Made by a program: the position numbers and the translations under genes. A DNA stretch of 64,000 nt from Sphingomicrobium aestuariivivum (GTDB taxonomy: Bacteria > Pseudomonadota > Alphaproteobacteria > Sphingomonadales > Sphingomonadaceae). Below, piece by piece: positions 44,989-57,281 of the stretch (its first letter is position 1; each line of letters begins with the position of its first letter). The stretch is taken from contig NZ_CP102629.1 of the NCBI RefSeq assembly GCF_024721585.1, positions 496,001 through 560,000 on the forward strand, read 5' to 3'. Under the pieces are notes generated by a model, which saw only the letters and a list, made by a program, of their open reading frames with translations, ran no database searches and had not been told where the DNA came from.

Positions 44989-45839
44989 GCGACAAGATCA
45001 CCGTCTCCGCCCTCCAGCTCGCCCTCGGTGGCGGCGTGGAGGAAAATATCGCCAATGTCTCCGAGCTCGTCCGCGAGGCGGCGGGCAAGGGCGCGCAGGT
45101 CGTCCTCCCGCCCGAGCTGTTCGAAGGCCCCTATTTCTGCCGCGAGGAAGACGAGACCCTCTTCGCCACCGCCAAACCCACTGCCAAGCACCCGAGCGTG
45201 CTCGCCATGCAGGAGCTCGCCGACGAGCTCGACATCTGGATCCCGACCAGCTTCTTCGAGGCCGACGGTCACCACCATTACAATTCGCTCGCCTGGATCG
45301 CGCCGTGCGGGAAGATCGCGGGCGTCTACCGCAAAAGCCACATTCCCGACGGCCCGGGCTATGAAGAGAAATTCTACTTCCGCCCCGGCAATACCGGTTT
45401 CAAGGTCTGGGACGGCCCCGAAGATCGCGTCATGGGCGTCGGCATCTGCTGGGACCAATGGTATCCCGAGACCGCGCGCGCGATGATGCTGATGGGCGCC
45501 GAGATCCTCTTCTACCCCACCGCCATCGGTTCGGAGCCGCACGACCCCGACCTCGACACCAGCCGCATGTGGCGCCGCGCCATGATCGGTCATGCCGTGT
45601 CGAACGTCGTGCCCGTCGTCGCCGCCAACCGCATCGGCAGCGAGTGCGGCCAGAATTTCTACGGCCACAGCTTCATCTGCGACGAACGCGGCGACCTCGT
45701 CGCCGAATTCGGGGCCAAGGAGACGGGCGTGCTCACGGCAAGTTTCGACATCGCCCAGATCCGCCAGCACCGCGCCGCCTTCGGCTTCTTCCGCGACCGC
45801 CGCCCCGAGCTTTACAAGAGGCTCGCCGAAGACCTCTAG
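44985..45839 (+). CDS. aguB: N-carbamoylputrescine amidase
   Basis: A 284-aa nitrilase-superfamily amidase that hydrolyses N-carbamoylputrescine to putrescine, CO2 and ammonia. The Glu-Lys-Cys triad is visible: VLPPELFEGPYF (Glu), YRKSHIPDGPGY (Lys) and GVGICWDQWYPE (Cys). FYPTAIGSEP and GHSFICDERGD are typical of AguB. It is coupled to aguA, completing the agmatine route to putrescine; no arginine decarboxylase gene is in the window. Its stop shares CTAG 45836-45839 with the convergent UDG-GNAT gene. Confidence 0.95.
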   Translation: MSDKITVSALQLALGGGVEENIANVSELVREAAGKGAQVVLPPELFEGPYFCREEDETLFATAKPTAKHPSVLAMQELADELDIWIPTSFFEADGHHHYNSLAWIAPCGKIAGVYRKSHIPDGPGYEEKFYFRPGNTGFKVWDGPEDRVMGVGICWDQWYPETARAMMLMGAEILFYPTAIGSEPHDPDLDTSRMWRRAMIGHAVSNVVPVVAANRIGSECGQNFYGHSFICDERGDLVAEFGAKETGVLTASFDIAQIRQHRAAFGFFRDRRPELYKRLAEDL

Positions 45840-47005
45840 AGGTCGATGCGCAGATACACGCTGTCGACCCACCGGTCGCCGTGCATCATCGCCTTTTCCT
45901 TGTACCCCGAGCGGGTGAAGCCGATCTTCTCGAGCGCTTTCAGCGAGCCGACATTGGCGGGATCGACGTCGGCGAACATGTAGGGCAGCCCGCGGGCGCG
46001 GATATAGTCGCGATAGGCCGCGAGCGCCTCGGTGGCATAGCCATGCCCCCAATGGTCGCGGCGGATCATCATGCCGATCTCGGGCACGTCCCACAGCCCG
46101 CACTTGCCGATGAGCTCGCCATCCTTCTCGACGATGAAATCGTCCGAATGGGGGCCCGCCGCCTCTATCATGCCGCGCAGCCACTCCTCGGTCTCGAACA
46201 TCGTGTCATGGACGGTGGTCGACCAGCTCTGCATCGTCTCCTCGTCGGTGAACAGCGTATGCAGCGCGTCGGCATCCTCCTTGCGCGCGCGCCGGAGGAC
46301 GAGCCGCTCGGTGCGCAGTTCGTCTGCCGCCTCACCCTTGAGGCCGGGCGAGACCGCCTTGCGTAGCGCCATCAGGAACATCTCGTCCGACAAACGCCCC
46401 GTATTCTGGTTGTAGCGGCTGCAATGATAGCTATCGACCAGCCGCAGTCCGTTCGGCGCATGGTGCACATTGCCATGCCCGAACTTGTTGGCGCTCAATG
46501 TCATGCCGAGCGCGCGGCAGGCGGCGTCATGCGCGATCTTGCCGAGCGCGAACAGCGTGTGGACCTTGGGCAGCTTGCCCAGCATCTCCTCGAGAAACGG
46601 CCGGCAATGCTGGATTTCATTACCCGTGGGCTTGTTCTCGGGCGGCAGGCATTTCACCGCATTGAGGATGATCGCGCCCTTCAGTTCGACCCCGTCGTCG
46701 ATGCGGCTCTGATAGTCGCCGACCGAAAGCCCCGTGCGCATCAGCACGTCGAACAACAGGTCGCCCGCATAGTCGCCGGTAAAGGGCCGCCCCGTGCGGT
46801 TGGCGCCGTGCTTGCCCGGTGCCAGCCCGATGATCGCGACGCCGGCATCGGGGTCGCCAAAGGCGGGCACGGGCGCATTGTACCAGTCGGGATGCTCGCT
46901 CCTCAGCTCCATCCGCAGGTCGACCAGCCGCGGGCACAGCGGGCAATCGCGCAGCGGTTCGCAGTCGGGCAGCGGCGAGAGATCGGCAGGGCTGGTCTTG
47001 TTCAT
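45836..47005 (-). CDS. Uracil-DNA glycosylase (family 5, Fe-S) fused to a GNAT acetyltransferase
   Basis: A 389-aa continuous fusion. Residues 1-220 are a family 5 (UdgB-type) uracil-DNA glycosylase: motif A GLAPGKHGANRTGRPFTGDYAGD (60-82) and motif B HCSRYNQNTGRL (194-205). Likely [4Fe-4S] ligands are Cys21, Cys24, Cys119 and Cys134. Residues about 230-389 are a RimJ/RimL-like GNAT domain beginning LRTERLVLRRARKEDADAL, with acetyl-CoA loop RRDHWGHGYATEAL (315-328) and ending ALEKIGFTRSGYKEKAM. No stop or ribosome site separates them. Uracil excision from DNA is likely; the acetyl acceptor is unknown. aguB converges from the left, and folK is divergent on the right. Confidence 0.9.
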   Translation of the reverse strand: MNKTSPADLSPLPDCEPLRDCPLCPRLVDLRMELRSEHPDWYNAPVPAFGDPDAGVAIIGLAPGKHGANRTGRPFTGDYAGDLLFDVLMRTGLSVGDYQSRIDDGVELKGAIILNAVKCLPPENKPTGNEIQHCRPFLEEMLGKLPKVHTLFALGKIAHDAACRALGMTLSANKFGHGNVHHAPNGLRLVDSYHCSRYNQNTGRLSDEMFLMALRKAVSPGLKGEAADELRTERLVLRRARKEDADALHTLFTDEETMQSWSTTVHDTMFETEEWLRGMIEAAGPHSDDFIVEKDGELIGKCGLWDVPEIGMMIRRDHWGHGYATEALAAYRDYIRARGLPYMFADVDPANVGSLKALEKIGFTRSGYKEKAMMHGDRWVDSVYLRIDL

Positions 47006-47579: not shown

Positions 47580-47655
47580 GGGCCGTTAGCTCAGTTGGTA
47601 GAGCAACTGACTTTTAATCAGTAGGTCGCAGGTTCGACCCCTGCACGGCTCACCA
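47580..47655 (+). tRNA. tRNA-Lys (anticodon TTT)
   Basis: A 76-nt cloverleaf with CCA encoded. The acceptor is GGGCCGT against ACGGCTC, with a G2-U71 wobble. The D arm is GCTCAGTTGGTAGAGC, the anticodon arm is ACTGA-CTTTTAA-TCAGT with TTT, the variable loop is AGGTC and the T arm is GCAGGTTCGACCCCTGC. About 35 nt downstream an 8-bp GGCGCGCG/CGCGCGCC hairpin (47691-47716) without a T run may help end the transcript. Confidence 0.98.
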
Positions 47656-47728: not shown

Positions 47729-48331
47729 TCAGAAGCCGAAAGTCCCTGCTTCGCCGGACAGGATGATGCTGATTTCGATACCGTCGCTCGCGCGCGGCGT
47801 CTCATCGCCCATCTGGTCGGCGAGGCGGTCGAGGAATTCGGTGATGTTGGTCCGCACCGAGCCCTCGATCGCCTTGCGCAGGCGCGTTTCCCCGAGAAGC
47901 GCCGAGCCGAAGGACTGGGTATAGTCGACCTCGACAAGCTCATCCATCAACAGCTCGCCCGTCGCCATGTCGGTGAGCTGGTAGCGCACTTCCGACGTCA
48001 CCTTGGCGTTGACCATGACCATCGGCTTCTTGATGCGCATGAGCTCGGCCGTCAGCTGGTAATCGCCCCCGCTCGAGGCCAGCAGGCCATTATTTGCCAG
48101 CGACTGGCGCAGCGCCGCCTGGAAGTCCTCGTTCGAGACCTCCGCCACGACGGTCGTCTTCTTGCCACCCGAGATCTCGCCGACTCTGATCGTCTGGCCG
48201 AGCGAGGCGAGCCGCTGCCCTTCCGCCGCGGGCACCTGCCCGATCGACATGTTCACGGGCTTGGCCGCGCAGGCCGATATGCTGACGGCGCAGGCTGCGA
48301 TCACGACAGGTTTGACGAGTTTGGATTTCAT
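47729..48331 (-). CDS. Hypothetical lipoprotein
   Basis: A 200-aa protein with a lipoprotein signal peptide: basic start KSKLVKP, hydrophobic helix, lipobox ISAC and modified Cys21. The mature part contains EDFQAALRQSLANNGLLA, a helix pattern seen in periplasmic lipoproteins of LptE- and CsgG-related folds, then alternating strand-like stretches (YQLTAELMRIKKPMVMVNA). No family is assigned. Cys21 would be the only cysteine after processing. It is divergent from the large ankyrin protein gene across 160 nt, so the two may share regulation and perhaps an envelope location. Confidence 0.75.
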   Translation of the reverse strand: MKSKLVKPVVIAACAVSISACAAKPVNMSIGQVPAAEGQRLASLGQTIRVGEISGGKKTTVVAEVSNEDFQAALRQSLANNGLLASSGGDYQLTAELMRIKKPMVMVNAKVTSEVRYQLTDMATGELLMDELVEVDYTQSFGSALLGETRLRKAIEGSVRTNITEFLDRLADQMGDETPRASDGIEISIILSGEAGTFGF

Positions 48332-48491
48332 TGATTGTCCCCCGGTTGATTCGCCGCGACGCTAACGCCCCGATCGGAGCCTGTCACCTTTGTTAATTTG
48401 CCGTGGTAAACGGAATTAATAATAGGATTTTACGAAACGGCAGGACCCTGTTAGCTATGCGGGGCGAGCGATATTCTCGGGGGGTACCACC

Positions 48492-51400
48492 ATGTTCCGC
48501 TTTCATCAGGGCCGCTTCGGCCTGCGCCGCACTGCGGCCTTTCTCGGCGCCGTGCTGCTTGCCGCCACGCTGTCGCCGCGCGCGGCATCGGCCCAGTCGC
48601 TCGTCGACATGCGCACTTACACCTCCGACTATTTCGGCCTCGATCCCTTCGATACGCAGGATGCCTTCGACATCGCCTGCGCCGCGGGGGAGCAAAAAGC
48701 GTGCAGCCAGGCCGACGAGATGCGCGGCGGCAAGCATTTCGCTCCGAAGAAGGGCTATGCCGCCCTGCGTTCGGCCTGCCGCAACGATGCTGCCCGCGCC
48801 TGCCTCGTGCAGGGCTGGTGGCAGCAGATGGGGCTCGGCACCGACGCCGATCTCGAGGAAGCGGTCCCGCTGTTCGAACAGAGCTGCCTCGGGGGTGACC
48901 AGGTCGGCTGTTTCCAATATCTGTTCTTCGCGAGGACGGGCGAGCACTGGGGCGTCACCAAGCTCGACGAGACAGCTGTCCGTTCGCGGATGCAGGCCCT
49001 GTGCGATGCGGGCTTCGACCCGGGCTGCGTGGGCACGACGCTGTACCTTTCGAATGAGGAGCTCGGCGCGCCGGCCGATGTTGCCCGGCATCTCCAGCCA
49101 CTCCTGTCGATGTGCGAACGCAATCCCGGTCCGTGCAACTTCACCAACGTGATCAATGCGGTAACGCCGCGCACCGCATCCCCGATTGCGACCCATCTCG
49201 CCGCGCAGGCGGGCCCGCAGGCACGCGCCGGCCTTGAACGGAGCATTGTCCGTTATATCGAGACGATGGCCGAGGCCGAGGTCTCCCCTGTCGGGGCCCT
49301 CTCGATGCTCCGCGCGATGCAGCAAGCGGGCGCCCCCGTCGTCTCGGACGAGCTGCTGGCGCTGGCCAACGACGATCCCGACCTCCTCGCCGTGATGCTG
49401 GCGGGCGACAGCGGTGTCATCTCCGACGACGCCAAGCGCCTTGCGCTGCTCACCGCCGCCAATGATGGCAATGCCACCACCATCCGCTCGCTCCTCGAGG
49501 CCGGCGCCAATCCCGATGTCCGCTCGAACAGCGATGCGGGCTGGACCGCCCTCCAATATGCGATCGTCGAAGGGCACCAGGACGCTGTCGATGCCCTGCT
49601 CGACGGCGGCGCCGACCCCTCCTTCGCCAGCAGCCAGGGTATCTCCCCCCTGCTTTCGGCAGCCAAGCGCGATCGCATCGACGCTATCAATTCGCTCGTC
49701 GAGGCCGGCGTCGATCTGTGGGCCACGGTTCCCGAGACCGACTTCACCGCGCTTCACATGGCGGCCAGCGAGGGCCAGACCCGCGCTGCGGCGCTCCTCC
49801 TGCGCGCCGGCGCCGATGTCGACCCGCAGGATTCCTCGAAGCAGACACCACTCCACTACGCCTTGGGGCATGAAAAGCTCGACACCGCTCGCTTGCTGAT
49901 CGCGCAAGGGGCCGATGTCGACCGCCCCTTCCCCAAGACCGGCCTGCCGCTGCTCACTGTCGCCATCAACGGCAACAATGAAGAAATGGCGGCAATGCTG
50001 CTGTCCGCAGGTGCCTCACCCAATGTCGAGGACAATAAGGGCGAGACCCCGCTGTTCGCGGCCATCCGTGCCGAGAACGACCCGCTTGCCGAGCTGCTGC
50101 TCGATGCCGGCGCCGATGCCGGTCACGTCAGCCTGTCGGGCGAAACGCCGTCGATGCTCTACGCCGCGCTCACCGAGAAGCGCGAGGCCGCCGCGGCCGC
50201 GGAGGCCGAGCGCCAGCGCCGCGAGGCCGAAGCGCGTCGCCGTGCCGAACAGCAGCGCATCGCCGAACAGCAGAACAAGAAGCGCGACGGCCTGCTCGGC
50301 GGGTTGATCGGCGCGGTCGCCGGTGCCGCCATCGGCACCGAGATGGGGCTCGGCGCCGAACAGGTCGGCCAGCTTGCCTCGACGCTCGGCCAGGTCGGCA
50401 TGCACGCCGAACAGGGCGAGGCCGACAGCTTCCAGAAAGCGCAGCGCGCTGTCAGCTCGCTCGAAGGGCGCCTCGCGATGACCGCCCCCACCAACCCCGA
50501 TGCGCAGGCCAATGCCTCGCGCCTCTACGCCGAACAGATGCGCGAGGCCGCGCGGCAGGGTGGCGATCCCGTCGCCATGGCGCTCACCGAAAGCGCGCTC
50601 GAGGCGGGCCAGAAGATCGGCCAGGCCATGGCCGACCAGCGCGAGTTCGAGAACGAGATGGCGCGGATGCAGGCCGAAATGGCGCAGCAGCAGGCCGCCG
50701 CGCGCGCCCCTTCCCCCAGCAATGCGGCCGCGACCACTTCGACGGCCCGCCAGCGGCAGGAAGCGCGTCGACAAGAGCAGGTCGCCCGTCGCCGCACCAA
50801 TACGCAGGCGCCGCGCCAGATGACGCTCAAGGTGAACATGCCGACGCTGAGCAACTGCACCACCATGGAGAAGGACGACCCCTATGACGTCGTCCAATAT
50901 GGCGATTGCGCGAACCGGTCGGGTGCCAACGGCAATGGCGACAACGCAGGCGGCAATGGCGGCGACGGCTCGGGCGCCCCGCGCTACGCCGACAATGGTC
51001 ATGGCAACGACACCGGCGACAATGGAGGCGAAGGCTCCAACGGCAACGGAAACGGCGGCGACAATGGCGGCCTGACGCCGGTCGAGGGCCGTGTGGAAAC
51101 CCATGTCCGCGGCAGCCAGCCCCCGCTCACTTGGGAAGAGCATGCCGAGATGCAGGAGCGCTACGGCTGCTACAAACCCGCTGCCGGCTGCGTCGTGCTC
51201 GTCGAGACCGTCTACGACAGCCGCTCGGGTATGATGAAGTTCAAGTTCCGTAACGATTGTTCGGGCGTGATCTACTATCGCTACAGCCTGCCCAAGAAGG
51301 ACGGCGGTCTCGACGAGGGCTCGTGGACGGTCCAGCCCGGACGCCCGTTCGAATTCTACAGCTATGCGGGCGATGAACTGATGTGGCAGCGCCACTTCGC

Positions 51401-51503
51401 CGAGTTCATCGGCTCGAAGAGTTCGACCGGCTCGATGTGCCGCAACGAGATCTTCCGCACCGATGTCGGCGGGGTCGCCTACGCCAAGAAGACCCGGCGT
51501 TAG
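48492..51503 (+). CDS. Exported Hcp/Sel1-like and ankyrin-repeat multidomain protein
   Basis: A 1003-aa protein. A signal peptide (1-34, cleavage near ASA-QS) is followed by five cysteine pairs spaced 7-8 residues apart (63/71, 96/104, 132/140, 171/179, 208/215), the disulfide pattern of Helicobacter Hcp/Sel1-like repeats. About seven ankyrin repeats follow (316-546; cores TALQYAIVEGHQDAVDALLDGGA, TALHMAASEGQ). Next come a charged coiled coil (562-598), a glycine-zipper helix (600-622, GLLGGLIGAVAGAAIGTEMG), an Ala/Gln/Glu-rich helical part, a Gly/Asn-rich linker (about 860-895) and a C-terminal domain with four Cys. Each module is a protein-interaction or membrane-association type; overall function is unknown. 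It is monocistronic. Confidence 0.85.
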   Translation: MFRFHQGRFGLRRTAAFLGAVLLAATLSPRAASAQSLVDMRTYTSDYFGLDPFDTQDAFDIACAAGEQKACSQADEMRGGKHFAPKKGYAALRSACRNDAARACLVQGWWQQMGLGTDADLEEAVPLFEQSCLGGDQVGCFQYLFFARTGEHWGVTKLDETAVRSRMQALCDAGFDPGCVGTTLYLSNEELGAPADVARHLQPLLSMCERNPGPCNFTNVINAVTPRTASPIATHLAAQAGPQARAGLERSIVRYIETMAEAEVSPVGALSMLRAMQQAGAPVVSDELLALANDDPDLLAVMLAGDSGVISDDAKRLALLTAANDGNATTIRSLLEAGANPDVRSNSDAGWTALQYAIVEGHQDAVDALLDGGADPSFASSQGISPLLSAAKRDRIDAINSLVEAGVDLWATVPETDFTALHMAASEGQTRAAALLLRAGADVDPQDSSKQTPLHYALGHEKLDTARLLIAQGADVDRPFPKTGLPLLTVAINGNNEEMAAMLLSAGASPNVEDNKGETPLFAAIRAENDPLAELLLDAGADAGHVSLSGETPSMLYAALTEKREAAAAAEAERQRREAEARRRAEQQRIAEQQNKKRDGLLGGLIGAVAGAAIGTEMGLGAEQVGQLASTLGQVGMHAEQGEADSFQKAQRAVSSLEGRLAMTAPTNPDAQANASRLYAEQMREAARQGGDPVAMALTESALEAGQKIGQAMADQREFENEMARMQAEMAQQQAAARAPSPSNAAATTSTARQRQEARRQEQVARRRTNTQAPRQMTLKVNMPTLSNCTTMEKDDPYDVVQYGDCANRSGANGNGDNAGGNGGDGSGAPRYADNGHGNDTGDNGGEGSNGNGNGGDNGGLTPVEGRVETHVRGSQPPLTWEEHAEMQERYGCYKPAAGCVVLVETVYDSRSGMMKFKFRNDCSGVIYYRYSLPKKDGGLDEGSWTVQPGRPFEFYSYAGDELMWQRHFAEFIGSKSSTGSMCRNEIFRTDVGGVAYAKKTRR
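50925..51075 (+). repeat. Degenerate Gly/Asn-coding repeat
   Basis: Imperfect repeats of GGCAATGGCGAC-like units encode alternating Gly, Asn and Asp in the large ankyrin protein. The tract is an obvious site for slippage and length variation between strains. It forms a flexible linker before the C-terminal domain. Confidence 0.7.
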
Positions 51504-53078: not shown

Positions 53079-53341
53079 GGATGAACCCGCTAAGATGTTG
53101 AACCTTTTGCCGAAATTGCCCCTTTACCATGTCGCGCCTGAAGTCAAGGGCGCTGCGGCGCCTCGCCTGTTCAAGATGGACCGAAGGCGCATTTCGATCC
53201 GATCCGGAGCAAACCTGCCCCGGCCCGCACCATAGCGGTGAATGCCCTAACGAGTTGGTAAGGTGGTCGCCTTTATTCCTCGGGCAGGACATGACGACGT
53301 TGCGCCATGCAATGATCTCCACTTCGGCAAAGGAGGCCCCC

Positions 53342-53989
53342 TTGAGCGACCAGATGATGGAAACCACGCTCTATTCGCTCGACGAGGAGACCCCGTCCGC
53401 CGACCGCCTCGACCAGCGCGATGGCGAGCGTCACCTGACGCTCTACCGCGTCGGCTCGGTGATGCTCGGCGACCGCCGCGAACTGTGCCTCATCAAGAAC
53501 ATCTCGGCGGGCGGCATGATGATCCGCGCCTACTGCCGCATCGCGGAGGGCGATGCGCTCACCGTCGAGCTCAAGAATGGCGAGCCCGTCTCGGGCAAGG
53601 CGATCTGGACCAAGGGCCAGAATGTCGGCGTCCAGTTCGACGAGAAGATCGACATCCTCTCCATCCTCTCGACCTCGATGGAAGGGCCCCGCCCCCGCAT
53701 GCCGCGGATCGAGGTCAGTTGCCCCGTCAGCCTCTATGTCGACAGCCACCCCATCCCCGCGCAGGTCGAGGACATCAGCCAGGGCGGGGTCAAGGTCGCC
53801 GTCCGCCAGCCGCTACCGCGCGGGGAGAAGGACCTCGGGGTGGCCTTGCCCGGCATGGCGCCGATCCGCGCCTCGGTGCGCTGGCAGAGTGACGAGAGCG
53901 CAGGGATCACCTTCAACACGCTCATGCCGCTCGGCGACCTCGTCGCCTGGCTCGAACGCCAGCGCGCGCCCATCTCCAAGGCGAGCTGA
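53342..53989 (+). CDS. Tandem PilZ-domain protein
   Basis: A 215-aa cytosolic protein with two PilZ domains. Domain 1 has the c-di-GMP signature RDGER (26-30) and NISAGG (53-58). Domain 2 (about 120-205) has DISQGG (144-149), but its arginine motif is only RPRMPR (wrong spacing), so it may be structural. The start is TTG 53342, chosen because a full AGGAGG (53331-53336) lies 5 nt upstream; in-frame ATGs at 53291 and 53312 have none. By family knowledge it binds c-di-GMP through domain 1. The output partner is unknown. The 263-nt region upstream shows no gene. Confidence 0.85.
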   Translation: MSDQMMETTLYSLDEETPSADRLDQRDGERHLTLYRVGSVMLGDRRELCLIKNISAGGMMIRAYCRIAEGDALTVELKNGEPVSGKAIWTKGQNVGVQFDEKIDILSILSTSMEGPRPRMPRIEVSCPVSLYVDSHPIPAQVEDISQGGVKVAVRQPLPRGEKDLGVALPGMAPIRASVRWQSDESAGITFNTLMPLGDLVAWLERQRAPISKAS

Positions 53990-54044
53990 GCGCTCTCACG
54001 ACTTCGTTTCGAAAAGGCCGCTGCGCGCGGCCCGAACGACGGGC

Positions 54045-54458
54045 CTAGTCCTCGATCTGGGCGCCGGGACCGCCAAACAGCCACTCCTGCGCGAACTTGC
54101 GTTCGCCGTCGCTGAGCTGGCTGGTGCGCACCGGCGGACGCTTGGCCGCGCTCTGGGCACGCATCTTGGGCGCGGGCACATGGCGCAGCACCACTTCGGG
54201 CTCCAGCGCCTGGGCAAAGGCGATGCCGGCGCGGCCATTGGCGCTCCACGCCACGCGGCCCGGGACCGACAGCCCCTCGCGGCGGAACAGCACGCGGCAG
54301 CCCTCTACCGGCAGCTTGTCGGCCTCGACCAGCGCGCCTTCGGCGGACAGGTTGCGCAGGCGCACCTCTTTCTGGCGCCCCCCGCATTCGAGGGCGGCTT
54401 TCATGTAGAAGCTCGAGCGCGGGCTCTTGCGGTTCTGCGGTGCGTTGCTCTCGTCCAT
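54045..54458 (-). CDS. Single PilZ-domain protein
   Basis: A 137-aa protein with one PilZ domain (about residues 8-95). The binding residues RKSPR (about 10-14) and NLSAEG (about 36-41) both match the c-di-GMP consensus. A C-terminal tail (about 96-137) with KMRAQSAAKRPPV and QEWLFGGPGAQIED is not part of the domain. It converges with the tandem PilZ gene at 55 nt. A role as c-di-GMP receptor is likely; the process controlled (surface polysaccharide, motility) cannot be told. Confidence 0.85.
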   Translation of the reverse strand: MDESNAPQNRKSPRSSFYMKAALECGGRQKEVRLRNLSAEGALVEADKLPVEGCRVLFRREGLSVPGRVAWSANGRAGIAFAQALEPEVVLRHVPAPKMRAQSAAKRPPVRTSQLSDGERKFAQEWLFGGPGAQIED

Positions 54459-54511: not shown

Positions 54512-55156
54512 TCACGCCCTGCGAATGAGCCGCAGCATGAAGTTGTTGGCGGGCATGGCGACCCGTTCGGCAAGCTCCAGCCCGCGCTTGCCAGCGGCCA
54601 CCGCGAGCGTCTCCACCTTGCGCAGCCCCCAGGCGCGGTCACGACCGCGCAGGCTCTCGTCGAAAGCAAGGTTGCTCGGCGCGGTCTCGACATCCTCCGC
54701 CAGCCATGGCCCGTAGAAGATCAGAGGTGCGCCCGGTGCCAGCAGCCGCGCCGCCCCGTCGAGAAGCCCGAGCGTCGCGCCCCACGGCGCGATATGCGCC
54801 ATGTTGATCGACAGCATCGCATCGGCCTCGCCCACCGGCCAGTCGGCCATGCCCGTGTCGATCTCGACCGGCGGGAGGAGATTGTCGGGCCCGCCCTCGC
54901 GCCATGCCGCGATCGAGGCGAGCGCGGCGGGATCCATGTCGGAAGGTTGCCAGTCGAGTTGCGGGAAATGTTCGGCAAAGGCGCGCGCATGCTGCCCCGT
55001 CCCGCTCGAGGTCTCGAGCACCAGCCCCCCGTCCGGCAGCCAGCGTTCGAGCACCTTGACGATATGCCCCACGTTGCGCGTCGCGGCGGGCGCCTCGCGG
55101 CGCGCCTCGGTGCCGAGATCTTCCATCGTGTAAGGCGGCAGTGAGGGCTCGGTCAT
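54512..55156 (-). CDS. DUF938 family SAM-dependent methyltransferase
   Basis: A 214-aa class I methyltransferase-like protein. EAPAATRNVGHIVKVLERWLP near the start, the SAM loop VLETSSGTGQHARAFAEHFP, the acidic WQPSDMDP and NMAHIAPW are the DUF938 signature. Substrate unknown. The ATG at 55156 overlaps the stop of the ABA4-like gene (ATGA 55153-55156), so it is the last gene of the gcv transcript as far as spacing shows. Upstream in-frame sequence is antisense-like and not coding. Confidence 0.85.
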   Translation of the reverse strand: MTEPSLPPYTMEDLGTEARREAPAATRNVGHIVKVLERWLPDGGLVLETSSGTGQHARAFAEHFPQLDWQPSDMDPAALASIAAWREGGPDNLLPPVEIDTGMADWPVGEADAMLSINMAHIAPWGATLGLLDGAARLLAPGAPLIFYGPWLAEDVETAPSNLAFDESLRGRDRAWGLRKVETLAVAAGKRGLELAERVAMPANNFMLRLIRRA

Positions 55157-55602
55157 CCGCGCATTTTCAGGCCGGCCATTGCCCGCGCGCGCCGTTCGCG
55201 CACGACCATCCAGATGAACAGGCCGAGCGGCCCGGCCATGAGCGTGAGGAACAGGATCGGCGCCTGCACCCAGCGATTGACCAGCTTGTGGTCGGCATCC
55301 TTGGCGATCCACTGGCCGACGAACAGGTCGAAGGCGAGATAATGGATCCATCCGAGGGTGACGCCTGCGTCACTGGCAAACAGGCATCTCACCCCCTCGA
55401 TTGTCCCCAGGGACGCCCAATCGATCCCGCCTGGCGAGAACATCATGACCAAGATCACGACGCTGTAGGCCAGCGCGAGAAGTCCGATCCCCAGATAGAA
55501 GATCAGCGCATGCGTCTTCGGGCCCCTTGGCCCCGCGATGAGCACGATCCAGGGAACGAAGACCCCGGTGACCACGATCGAAAAGAGCGTCTCCCAGTCC
55601 AT
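55153..55602 (-). CDS. ABA4-like (DUF4281) membrane protein
   Basis: A 149-aa protein with four helices (about residues 6-24, 34-55, 80-98, 110-134). The stretch DAGVTLGWIHYLAFDLFVGQWI is the family core shared with plant ABA4, which is needed for neoxanthin formation. Bacterial members are uncharacterised. The ATG at 55602 uses the last base of the gcvPB stop (TGATG), and its stop overlaps the DUF938 start, so it is tightly coupled inside the gcv operon. A carotenoid role is only an analogy. Confidence 0.82.
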   Translation of the reverse strand: MDWETLFSIVVTGVFVPWIVLIAGPRGPKTHALIFYLGIGLLALAYSVVILVMMFSPGGIDWASLGTIEGVRCLFASDAGVTLGWIHYLAFDLFVGQWIAKDADHKLVNRWVQAPILFLTLMAGPLGLFIWMVVRERRARAMAGLKMRG

Positions 55603-57281
55603 CAACCGCCGCCATACTTGGCGGCCATGCCGGTGGAGGAGGCCTCGGGCACGGCTTCCTTATAGGCAAGCACGGGCTTGCGCGCGGCCTGCGTCTCGTC
55701 GAGGCGGCGGCGCGGCGCATAATAAGGCGCGGCCTTCATGCCTTCATCGCCAGCCTTCGCACGCTCCGCCACGCTGCGCAGCGCGGTGATGAACTGGTCG
55801 AGCGTGGCCTTGCTCTCGGTCTCGGTCGGCTCCACCAGCATCGCGCCATGCACCACCAGCGGGAAGTACATGGTCATCGGGTGATAGCCCTCGTCGATCA
55901 GCGCCTTGGCGAGATCGAGCGTCGAGATGCCCTCGCCGAAGCCTTTGTCGCTGAACAGTGCCTCGTGCATGCAGGGACCCGAATGGGCGAAGGGCGCGTC
56001 GAGCACGTCCTCGAGGCTCCTGAGGATGTAATTGGCGTTCAGGACCGCATCCTCGGCGACCTGCCGCAAGCCGTCGGCACCATGGCTGAGGATATAAGCG
56101 AGCGCGCGGGTGAACATGCCCATCTGGCCGTGGAAGGCGGTCATGCGCCCGAAATGCTTCAGCGGCCCGCCGAAATGCTCCTTGGCGAAGCTTTCCGCAT
56201 CCTCTTCCTCGACGAGGTGCACGACGCCGTCCTTGGTGCGCGCGGTATAGGGCAGCGGGCCATAGGCCGCGAGCGCTTCCGACAGCACCACCGGCCCCGA
56301 CCCCGGGCCGCCGCCGCCATGCGGGGTGGAGAAGGTCTTGTGCAGGTTGATGTGCATGGCATCGACGCCGAGATCGCCGGGGCGCACCTTGCCGACGATG
56401 GCGTTGAAATTGGCGCCGTCGCAATAGACATAGCCGCCCGCTTCATGGACCGCGTCAGAGATCGCCTTCATGTCGCGCTCGAACAGGCCGAGCGTCGAGG
56501 GGTTGGTGATCATCACGCCCGCCACGTCAGGACCGAGCCGCTCCTTCAGCTTGTCGAGATCGACGCGCCCGTCGCTGTTGGCGGGAATATTCTCGATCCG
56601 GTAGCCCGCGAAGGCGGCGGTGGCGGGGTTGGTGCCATGCGCGCTTTCGGGCACGAGGATGACCTCGCGCGCATCGCCCTTCGCCTCCAATGCGGCGCGG
56701 ATGCACAGGATGCCGCACAATTCGCCATGCGCGCCCGCCTTGGGGCTCATCGCCACGCTGTGCATGCCGGTCAGCTTCACCAGCCAGAAGGCGAGCTCGT
56801 TGATCACCTCCAGCGCCCCGCGCACCGTGTCGACCGGCTGCAGCGGGTGAACGTCGGCAAAACCCGGCATCCGCGCGATCTTCTCGTTGAGGCGCGGATT
56901 GTGCTTCATCGTGCACGAACCGAGCGGGAACAGGCCGAGGTCGATGGCGTAATTCTGGCGCGACAGGCGGGTATAATGGCGCACCGTCTCGGGCTCGGTC
57001 AGGCCCGGCAGGCCGATCGCGCCCTTGCGCTCGAAGCCACCGAGGCGGCTCGTCGTCTCGCCCATCGGGGTCGGCTCGGGCGGCTGCTCGACGCCTGCCA
57101 GCGCGAGCTTGCCCGCATATTCGAAATCGACGCCGGTGGTCTCGGTATCGCCGATCTCGAAAATGAGCGGCTCTTCCAGCATCAGCGCGCGGTTGCCGGT
57201 GGTCGTGTCGGGCCCGCTCATGGCGTTATGGCCCTCGACGGGGGTGCCGGGTTTCCAGCCGCTCTCGTTGGTCTTGGTCAT
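55602..57281 (-). CDS. gcvPB: Glycine dehydrogenase (decarboxylating) subunit 2
   Basis: A 559-aa C-terminal half of a split P-protein. It carries the PLP lysine in [20 protein letters not shown] and the family stretches [43 protein letters not shown] and CDGANFNAI. With GcvPA it decarboxylates glycine and passes the aminomethyl group to lipoyl-GcvH. The N-terminal 35 residues are a variable extension. ATG 57281 overlaps the gcvPA stop (ATGA 57278-57281). Confidence 0.96.

Follow-up and report, generated by a model that had tools for sequence, protein, structure and literature searches.

A putatively exported fusion of Hcp-like and ankyrin repeats, paired with a lipoprotein gene, beside tRNA-Lys in Sphingomicrobium aestuariivivum

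What kind of protein joins Cys-paired repeats of the Hcp type to ankyrin repeats, a glycine zipper, and a Cys-containing tail behind a signal-like N-terminus, and what might a bacterium use it for? The question is raised by a gene of Sphingomicrobium aestuariivivum located at positions 48492..51503 (+ strand) of the window—that is, the whole 64,000-nucleotide stretch of contig NZ_CP102629.1 analyzed here. The gene begins with ATG and encodes 1003 amino acids, with the bounds of its open reading frame (ORF) confirmed exactly. The segments listed in the first-pass annotation, and their order, were borne out by sequence analysis of this ORF; each part is of a known kind, and their combination is new, rare, and paired with a lipoprotein gene. 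No paper joining Sel1, ankyrin repeats, and a glycine zipper was found in the literature collection searched, and nothing related was found there on Sphingomicrobium with ankyrin. The reading favored here, which we consider to have about an even chance of being right, is that of a multivalent binding scaffold, located in the periplasm or at the outer membrane, that works with its lipoprotein as an accessory module.

The protein contains 16 Cys residues in total, ten of which form pairs in the N-terminal part (residues 36–225; 48597..49166), to which five Cys-paired Hcp/Sel1-like repeats are assigned from PDB matches, Cys spacing, and profile relatives. Five pairs lie 7–8 residues apart (63/71, 96/104, 132/140, 171/179, and 208/215), a sixth is found at 893/900, and the remaining Cys residues are at positions 789, 806, 923, and 983. 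Shuffling residues 36–300 20,000 times never produced five such pairs, nor did the mature protein, shuffled as often, ever yield six. When residues 35–303 were compared with the PDB by phmmer, HcpC (1ouv, E 4.6e-5) and HcpB (1klx, E 0.0011) scored best among four matches, and Cys 96, 104, 132, and 140 fell on Cys residues of HcpC, which agrees with the initial reading of the pairs as Hcp-type. A two-sequence profile also matched HcpC 1ouv (E 8.4e-8); because designed PPR proteins score equally with this profile by summing weak repeats, the kinship with Hcp rests mainly on the Cys register. A Pfam scan of the 1003-residue protein gave no Sel1 match. Overall, homology of this part to Hcp repeats is supported by the sequence comparisons.

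The hairpins of HcpB, HcpC, and Csep1P each carry an internal disulfide, according to PMC12904459. The exported Helicobacter proteins HcpB and HcpC and Campylobacter Csep1P resemble the present protein in their alpha-hairpin repeats with a Cys pair 7–9 residues apart. They are repeat-only or otherwise extended, whereas the protein described here is fused to ankyrin repeats, a zipper, and a tail domain, and its Hcp part has diverged beyond detection by Pfam Sel1.

The second repeat region (residues 313–552; 49428..50147) is an ankyrin domain, in which seven 33-residue units and a partial one were counted by eye, consistent with the approximately seven repeats proposed earlier. Pfam Ank_2 (PF12796) matches it at 143.9 bits against a cut-off of 27.3 (E 2.2e-42), PDB sequence matches give the same assignment, and a Foldseek search with the ankyrin model returned ankyrins at E of about 1e-12. 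In the full-length AlphaFold model, built from a two-sequence alignment, the mean predicted local distance difference test score (pLDDT) was 50.9, with block means of 65–91 in the ankyrin domain and poor values in the Hcp and tail parts. Between the two repeat regions lies a Cys-free helical stretch (residues 226–312; 49167..49427), predicted in a model of the N-terminal part with block pLDDT values mostly of 71–86. The ankyrin domain is followed by a long charged helix and possible coiled coil (residues 553–597; 50148..50282), which appears as a single helix at residues 553–595 in the AlphaFold model, and then by the glycine zipper, (GxxxG)4 (residues 600–621; 50289..50354). The next segment (residues 622–775; 50355..50816), conserved in the alignment, is predicted to be helical in a low-confidence model. 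A Gly/Asn-rich linker with 21 Gly and 12 Asn within 56 residues (residues 807–862; 50910..51077) then leads to the C-terminal Cys-containing domain (residues 863–1003; 51078..51500).

The sole full-length relative found is encoded by Sphingomicrobium astaxanthinifaciens JCM 18551 (genome G266); it has 52% identity, keeps the segment order, and retains all 16 Cys residues. The full-length protein is therefore present in two of 71 Sphingomicrobium genomes, 51 of which give a match at E <= 1e-5, all but these two being short and lying in or around the ankyrin part. At E <= 1e-20, the only match among 149 sampled genomes of the family was S. aestuariivivum itself. A single-sequence scan of the genome collection gave no match, and another scan of the collection led to the G266 locus. 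The Hcp part diverges fast, with 41% identity between the window and G266, as compared with 71–96% for most chromosomal neighbors and 58–64% for the lipoprotein and methyltransferase-like genes. A phage or plasmid origin was considered and rejected, since the four phage and five plasmid records matching the protein do so in or around the ankyrin part and none covers 80% of the query; viral contigs searched with the Hcp part and with the tail part gave no match.

The separate parts are more widely distributed. A profile of the Hcp part matches 49 of 396 Sphingomonadales genomes, and 20 such loci were inspected, namely those of the window and G266 and 18 others. All 18 non-fusion loci encode a signal-like hydrophobic N-terminal stretch and 4–9 Cys pairs, none has ankyrin repeats in frame, and Pfam calls Sel1 (PF08238) in the three proteins tested from this group. 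The rarity originally attributed to Hcp-type repeats thus does not hold for this order, in which exported-looking Cys-Sel1 proteins are ordinary and the ankyrin fusion is not. The signal-like start and Cys pairs are shared by these proteins and the fusion, which alone adds ankyrin repeats.

Likewise, the C-terminal domain, at first regarded as novel, proved to have relatives: its profile, at E <= 0.01, matches 11 of 377 genomes of the family, comprising the two fusions, seven free proteins, and two weak matches. The seven free proteins, each in a different genome and together spanning several genera (loci L095–L101), are approximately 130 residues long, have a signal-like start in every case, and share six Cys residues. 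They are homologous to the fusion tail but stand alone and have two more Cys residues, the fusion domain having kept Cys 1, 2, 3, and 6 without Cys 4 and 5. The joint absence of Cys 4 and 5 suggests that these two residues pair with each other in the six-Cys family. A Pfam or NCBIfam name for this family was sought and rejected, since the best candidate, DUF1283, matched one member out of nine (E 0.0082) and was not convincing, and comparison of the family with the PDB gave no match (best E 0.47).

We infer that the fusion protein is exported because it has a signal-like start, because the proteins otherwise carrying its Hcp and tail parts look exported, because its Cys count is even and invariant, and because DsbB was found in both carrier genomes; on this footing, the exported location first proposed is upheld by inference only. 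The signal-peptide-like N-terminus (residues 1–35; 48492..48596), recognized by eye and from hydropathy, ends in ...AASAQ, and ASAQS is kept in the relative. The zipper, with glycines G603/607/611/615/619 in the motif GxxxGxxxGxxxGxxxG, is directly preceded by lysines and an arginine. By the positive-inside rule, a single inner-membrane span at this position would be awkward in either orientation, and such a span is disfavored because it would leave the Cys tail inside, yet this domain otherwise occurs in exported proteins. The zipper is better explained by self-association or by contact with the outer membrane.

The second component of the proposed module is a small gene divergent from the fusion gene (47729..48331, − strand), predicted to encode a 200-residue lipoprotein on the basis of a lipobox-like ISAC, with Ala after the Cys, found by eye. 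The same divergent pair is found on contig 1 of G266, where the lipoprotein has 57% identity to that of the window, and the lipoprotein gene is the only neighbor co-conserved with the fusion gene at both loci. Within the genus, it occurs in the same two of 71 genomes as the fusion gene; the chance of the same two genomes being hit is 1 in 2485 if presence is independent and relatedness is ignored. The two genes are separated by a 160-bp intergenic region (48332..48491), in which a G-run leader precedes both starts: a run of 5–7 G residues lies 5–7 nucleotides before the start codons of both window genes (48336-48344, − strand, and 48478-48486, + strand). The same run precedes both genes of the G266 pair (an internal ATG in the case of the lipoprotein) and an orphan lipoprotein gene on contig 2 of G266. 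The motif CGGGGGRYA was found three times in the window against 2.9 expected and is hence not over-represented; two of the three occurrences are those before the start codons of the pair.

Comparison of the three lipoprotein copies showed that, in the middle of the protein (residues 106–160), the paired copies share a residue that the orphan lacks at 15 positions, and the window and orphan copies alone agree at four, as compared with 13 and 28 elsewhere in the protein (Fisher p 0.0008, for a region picked after the alignment had been viewed). Because of this choice of region, the pattern is treated as a lead only, and gene conversion would yield the same pattern.

A tRNA-Lys(ttt) gene identified by ARAGORN (47580..47655, + strand) forms the edge of a variable site, the order in the window being folK, tRNA-Lys, the lipoprotein gene, the fusion gene, and a glycosyltransferase gene. 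In the congener genome G264, which is about as close to the window genome as G266 is, judged from the identity of neighboring core proteins, the site is empty: folK and tRNA-Lys are followed by the glycosyltransferase gene, which ends approximately 90 bp after tRNA-Lys, and both the fusion and lipoprotein genes are missing. The place after tRNA-Lys is taken in another congener (G267) by a different gene, which inspection by eye suggests to be glycosyltransferase-like. In G266, the tRNA-Lys site on contig 2 holds only the orphan lipoprotein gene, and 40 bp that nearly repeat the end of tRNA-Lys (L047 7761-7800; 92.5% identity, E 3e-13) lie between this gene and the glycosyltransferase gene; the copy is likely a remnant of an attachment site, of the sort that integration into a tRNA gene leaves behind. 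The pair itself, with its genes side by side and divergent in both cases, occupies two different genomic locations, the window site and contig 1 of G266, where it lies within a 19-kb stretch of low G+C content (0.611, versus 0.690 around the contig 2 site). MobA/MobL-type genes are located near the contig 1 pair in this stretch (L048 15937-18999). Since site occupancy varies, a tRNA-end copy is present, and the G266 pair has a low-G+C, Mob-type context, the two genes are accessory and probably mobile. No integrase was seen among the seven neighboring window proteins scanned, and no search aimed at integrases was made.

Taken together, these features are consistent with the following model. Sec would export the fusion protein, with the periplasm or the outer membrane as its final location. 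There, the Hcp repeats, locked into a solenoid by disulfides, and the ankyrin solenoid might together offer a single extended surface for binding. The charged helix and the zipper may mediate self-association or membrane contact, and the Cys-containing tail, on its flexible Gly/Asn tether, could serve as a separate binding head. The divergently encoded lipoprotein may anchor or recruit the fusion protein at the outer membrane, and the two genes would travel as an accessory module, beside tRNA-Lys in S. aestuariivivum. A bolder version, which we regard as speculative and on balance unlikely, treats the pair as a mobile envelope module of two genes: the stapled Hcp solenoid, the ankyrin solenoid, and the tethered tail would build a large, receptor-like extracytoplasmic scaffold, mounted on an outer-membrane lipoprotein, and would provide strain-specific capture of foreign proteins, such as toxins, phage proteins, or surface proteins of neighbors.

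Several observations weigh against the scaffold model and the module that it assumes. The model of the N-terminal part alone is poor (mean pLDDT 60.5), with block means of 35–62 across the Cys repeats and mostly 64–86 beyond them; a Foldseek search with it gave no match at E <= 0.001, and HcpC was not among the 50 matches listed. In this low-confidence model, four of the five Cys pairs fall at the ends of helices or close to them, next to predicted turns, and the first lies within one long helix; VIA returned only generic solenoid matches, the best being to an unrelated solenoid (Z 7.8). The (GxxxG)4 motif of the glycine zipper named in the first-pass annotation is present, but its match to the Pfam model Rick_17kDa_Anti (Glycine zipper 2TM, PF05433) falls below the cut-off (18.2 versus 24.2 bits, E 0.0024), and the segment is weakly hydrophobic, with a best 19-residue hydropathy of 1.43. 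The co-occurrence of the fusion and lipoprotein genes rests on two genomes. Furthermore, the lipoprotein family also occurs without the fusion gene: 10 of 396 Sphingomonadales genomes and five plasmid records (from Skermanella, Amphritea, and Vibrio) carry a member, and at those of these loci that were opened no neighboring gene was annotated or predicted as an Hcp-ankyrin fusion; the lipoprotein therefore has a role of its own. Finally, the gene flanked by the tRNA-end copy in G266 is the orphan lipoprotein gene, and no such copy was found at the window locus or the contig 1 locus of G266.

Four other explanations were weighed against a scaffold function. The first is acquired immunity or envelope defense, with the repeats binding and neutralizing foreign bacterial toxins or blocking phage receptors, which we consider unlikely even though the patchy presence of the gene, the variable tRNA-Lys site, the mobile-gene neighbors in G266, and the low identity of the Hcp part relative to most chromosomal neighbors would all suit it. 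There is also a precedent, in that Sel1-like repeats are reported (PMC13133936) in the Tli5b immunity proteins of Pseudomonas aeruginosa, whose binding partner is the phospholipase PldB. Tli5b resembles the fusion in having such repeats in an envelope protein, but the type VI secretion system (T6SS) sheath gene VipA (PF05591) was found in neither carrier genome, with an Escherichia coli control positive; this result led to rejection of a T6SS effector-immunity pair and leaves room for defense against foreign attackers. Tli proteins are, moreover, far simpler in architecture and are not known to have ankyrin repeats, a zipper, or a tail domain. In addition, no toxin gene was recognized beside the fusion gene, and matches to PADLOC defense models fall in the ankyrin part.

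That the protein is secreted to act on cells of eukaryotes, such as protists or marine animals, in the manner of Helicobacter Hcp or Legionella ankyrin effectors, is improbable. Both repeat types do occur in host-acting bacterial proteins, and NCBIfam Dot/Icm ankyrin-effector models match the ankyrin part; the best score, however, is 97.4 bits against a cut-off of 600, these matches are generic ankyrin ones, exported Cys-Sel1 proteins are spread across the order, and a type IV effector would need no Sec signal. By analogy, the protein might also be envisaged as a chaperone-like adaptor serving a single client enzyme in the periplasm, although we think this very improbable. Periplasmic ankyrin proteins paired with catalase are known, such as AnkB of Pseudomonas, and are not known to have Cys repeats or a tail domain. 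The exported-looking ankyrin domain would fit such a role, and solenoid surfaces suit protein binding; here, however, no catalase gene adjoins the fusion gene, and neither catalase nor any other enzyme gene is co-conserved with it, the lipoprotein gene being the sole co-conserved neighbor. A chance fusion without selected function, spread by a mobile element, accords with the finding of only two carriers but is the least credible explanation, given that a full-length frame, the 16 Cys residues, and the domain order are kept at two loci at 52% identity, together with the gene pair.

Other genes around the site were noted in passing. Upstream, a single frame (45839-47005, − strand) joins uracil-DNA glycosylase-like and GNAT acetyltransferase domains, and its product has 91% identity over its length in both G264 and G266. 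Two PilZ-domain genes in opposite orientation (53129-54458) adjoin the glycosyltransferase gene, and a gene for an ABA4-like membrane protein lies at 55153-55605 (− strand).

If the scaffold reading is correct, and the fusion protein is exported, S. aestuariivivum, which is not, as far as this analysis goes, a known pathogen, would provide a case of ankyrin repeats joined to a disulfide-stapled solenoid outside the cytoplasm, and the conserved lipoprotein partner makes this function testable. For the order as a whole, exported Cys-Sel1 proteins, familiar mainly from Helicobacter, appear to be an ordinary part of Sphingomonadales genomes, and the analysis points to an unnamed family of exported six-Cys domains.

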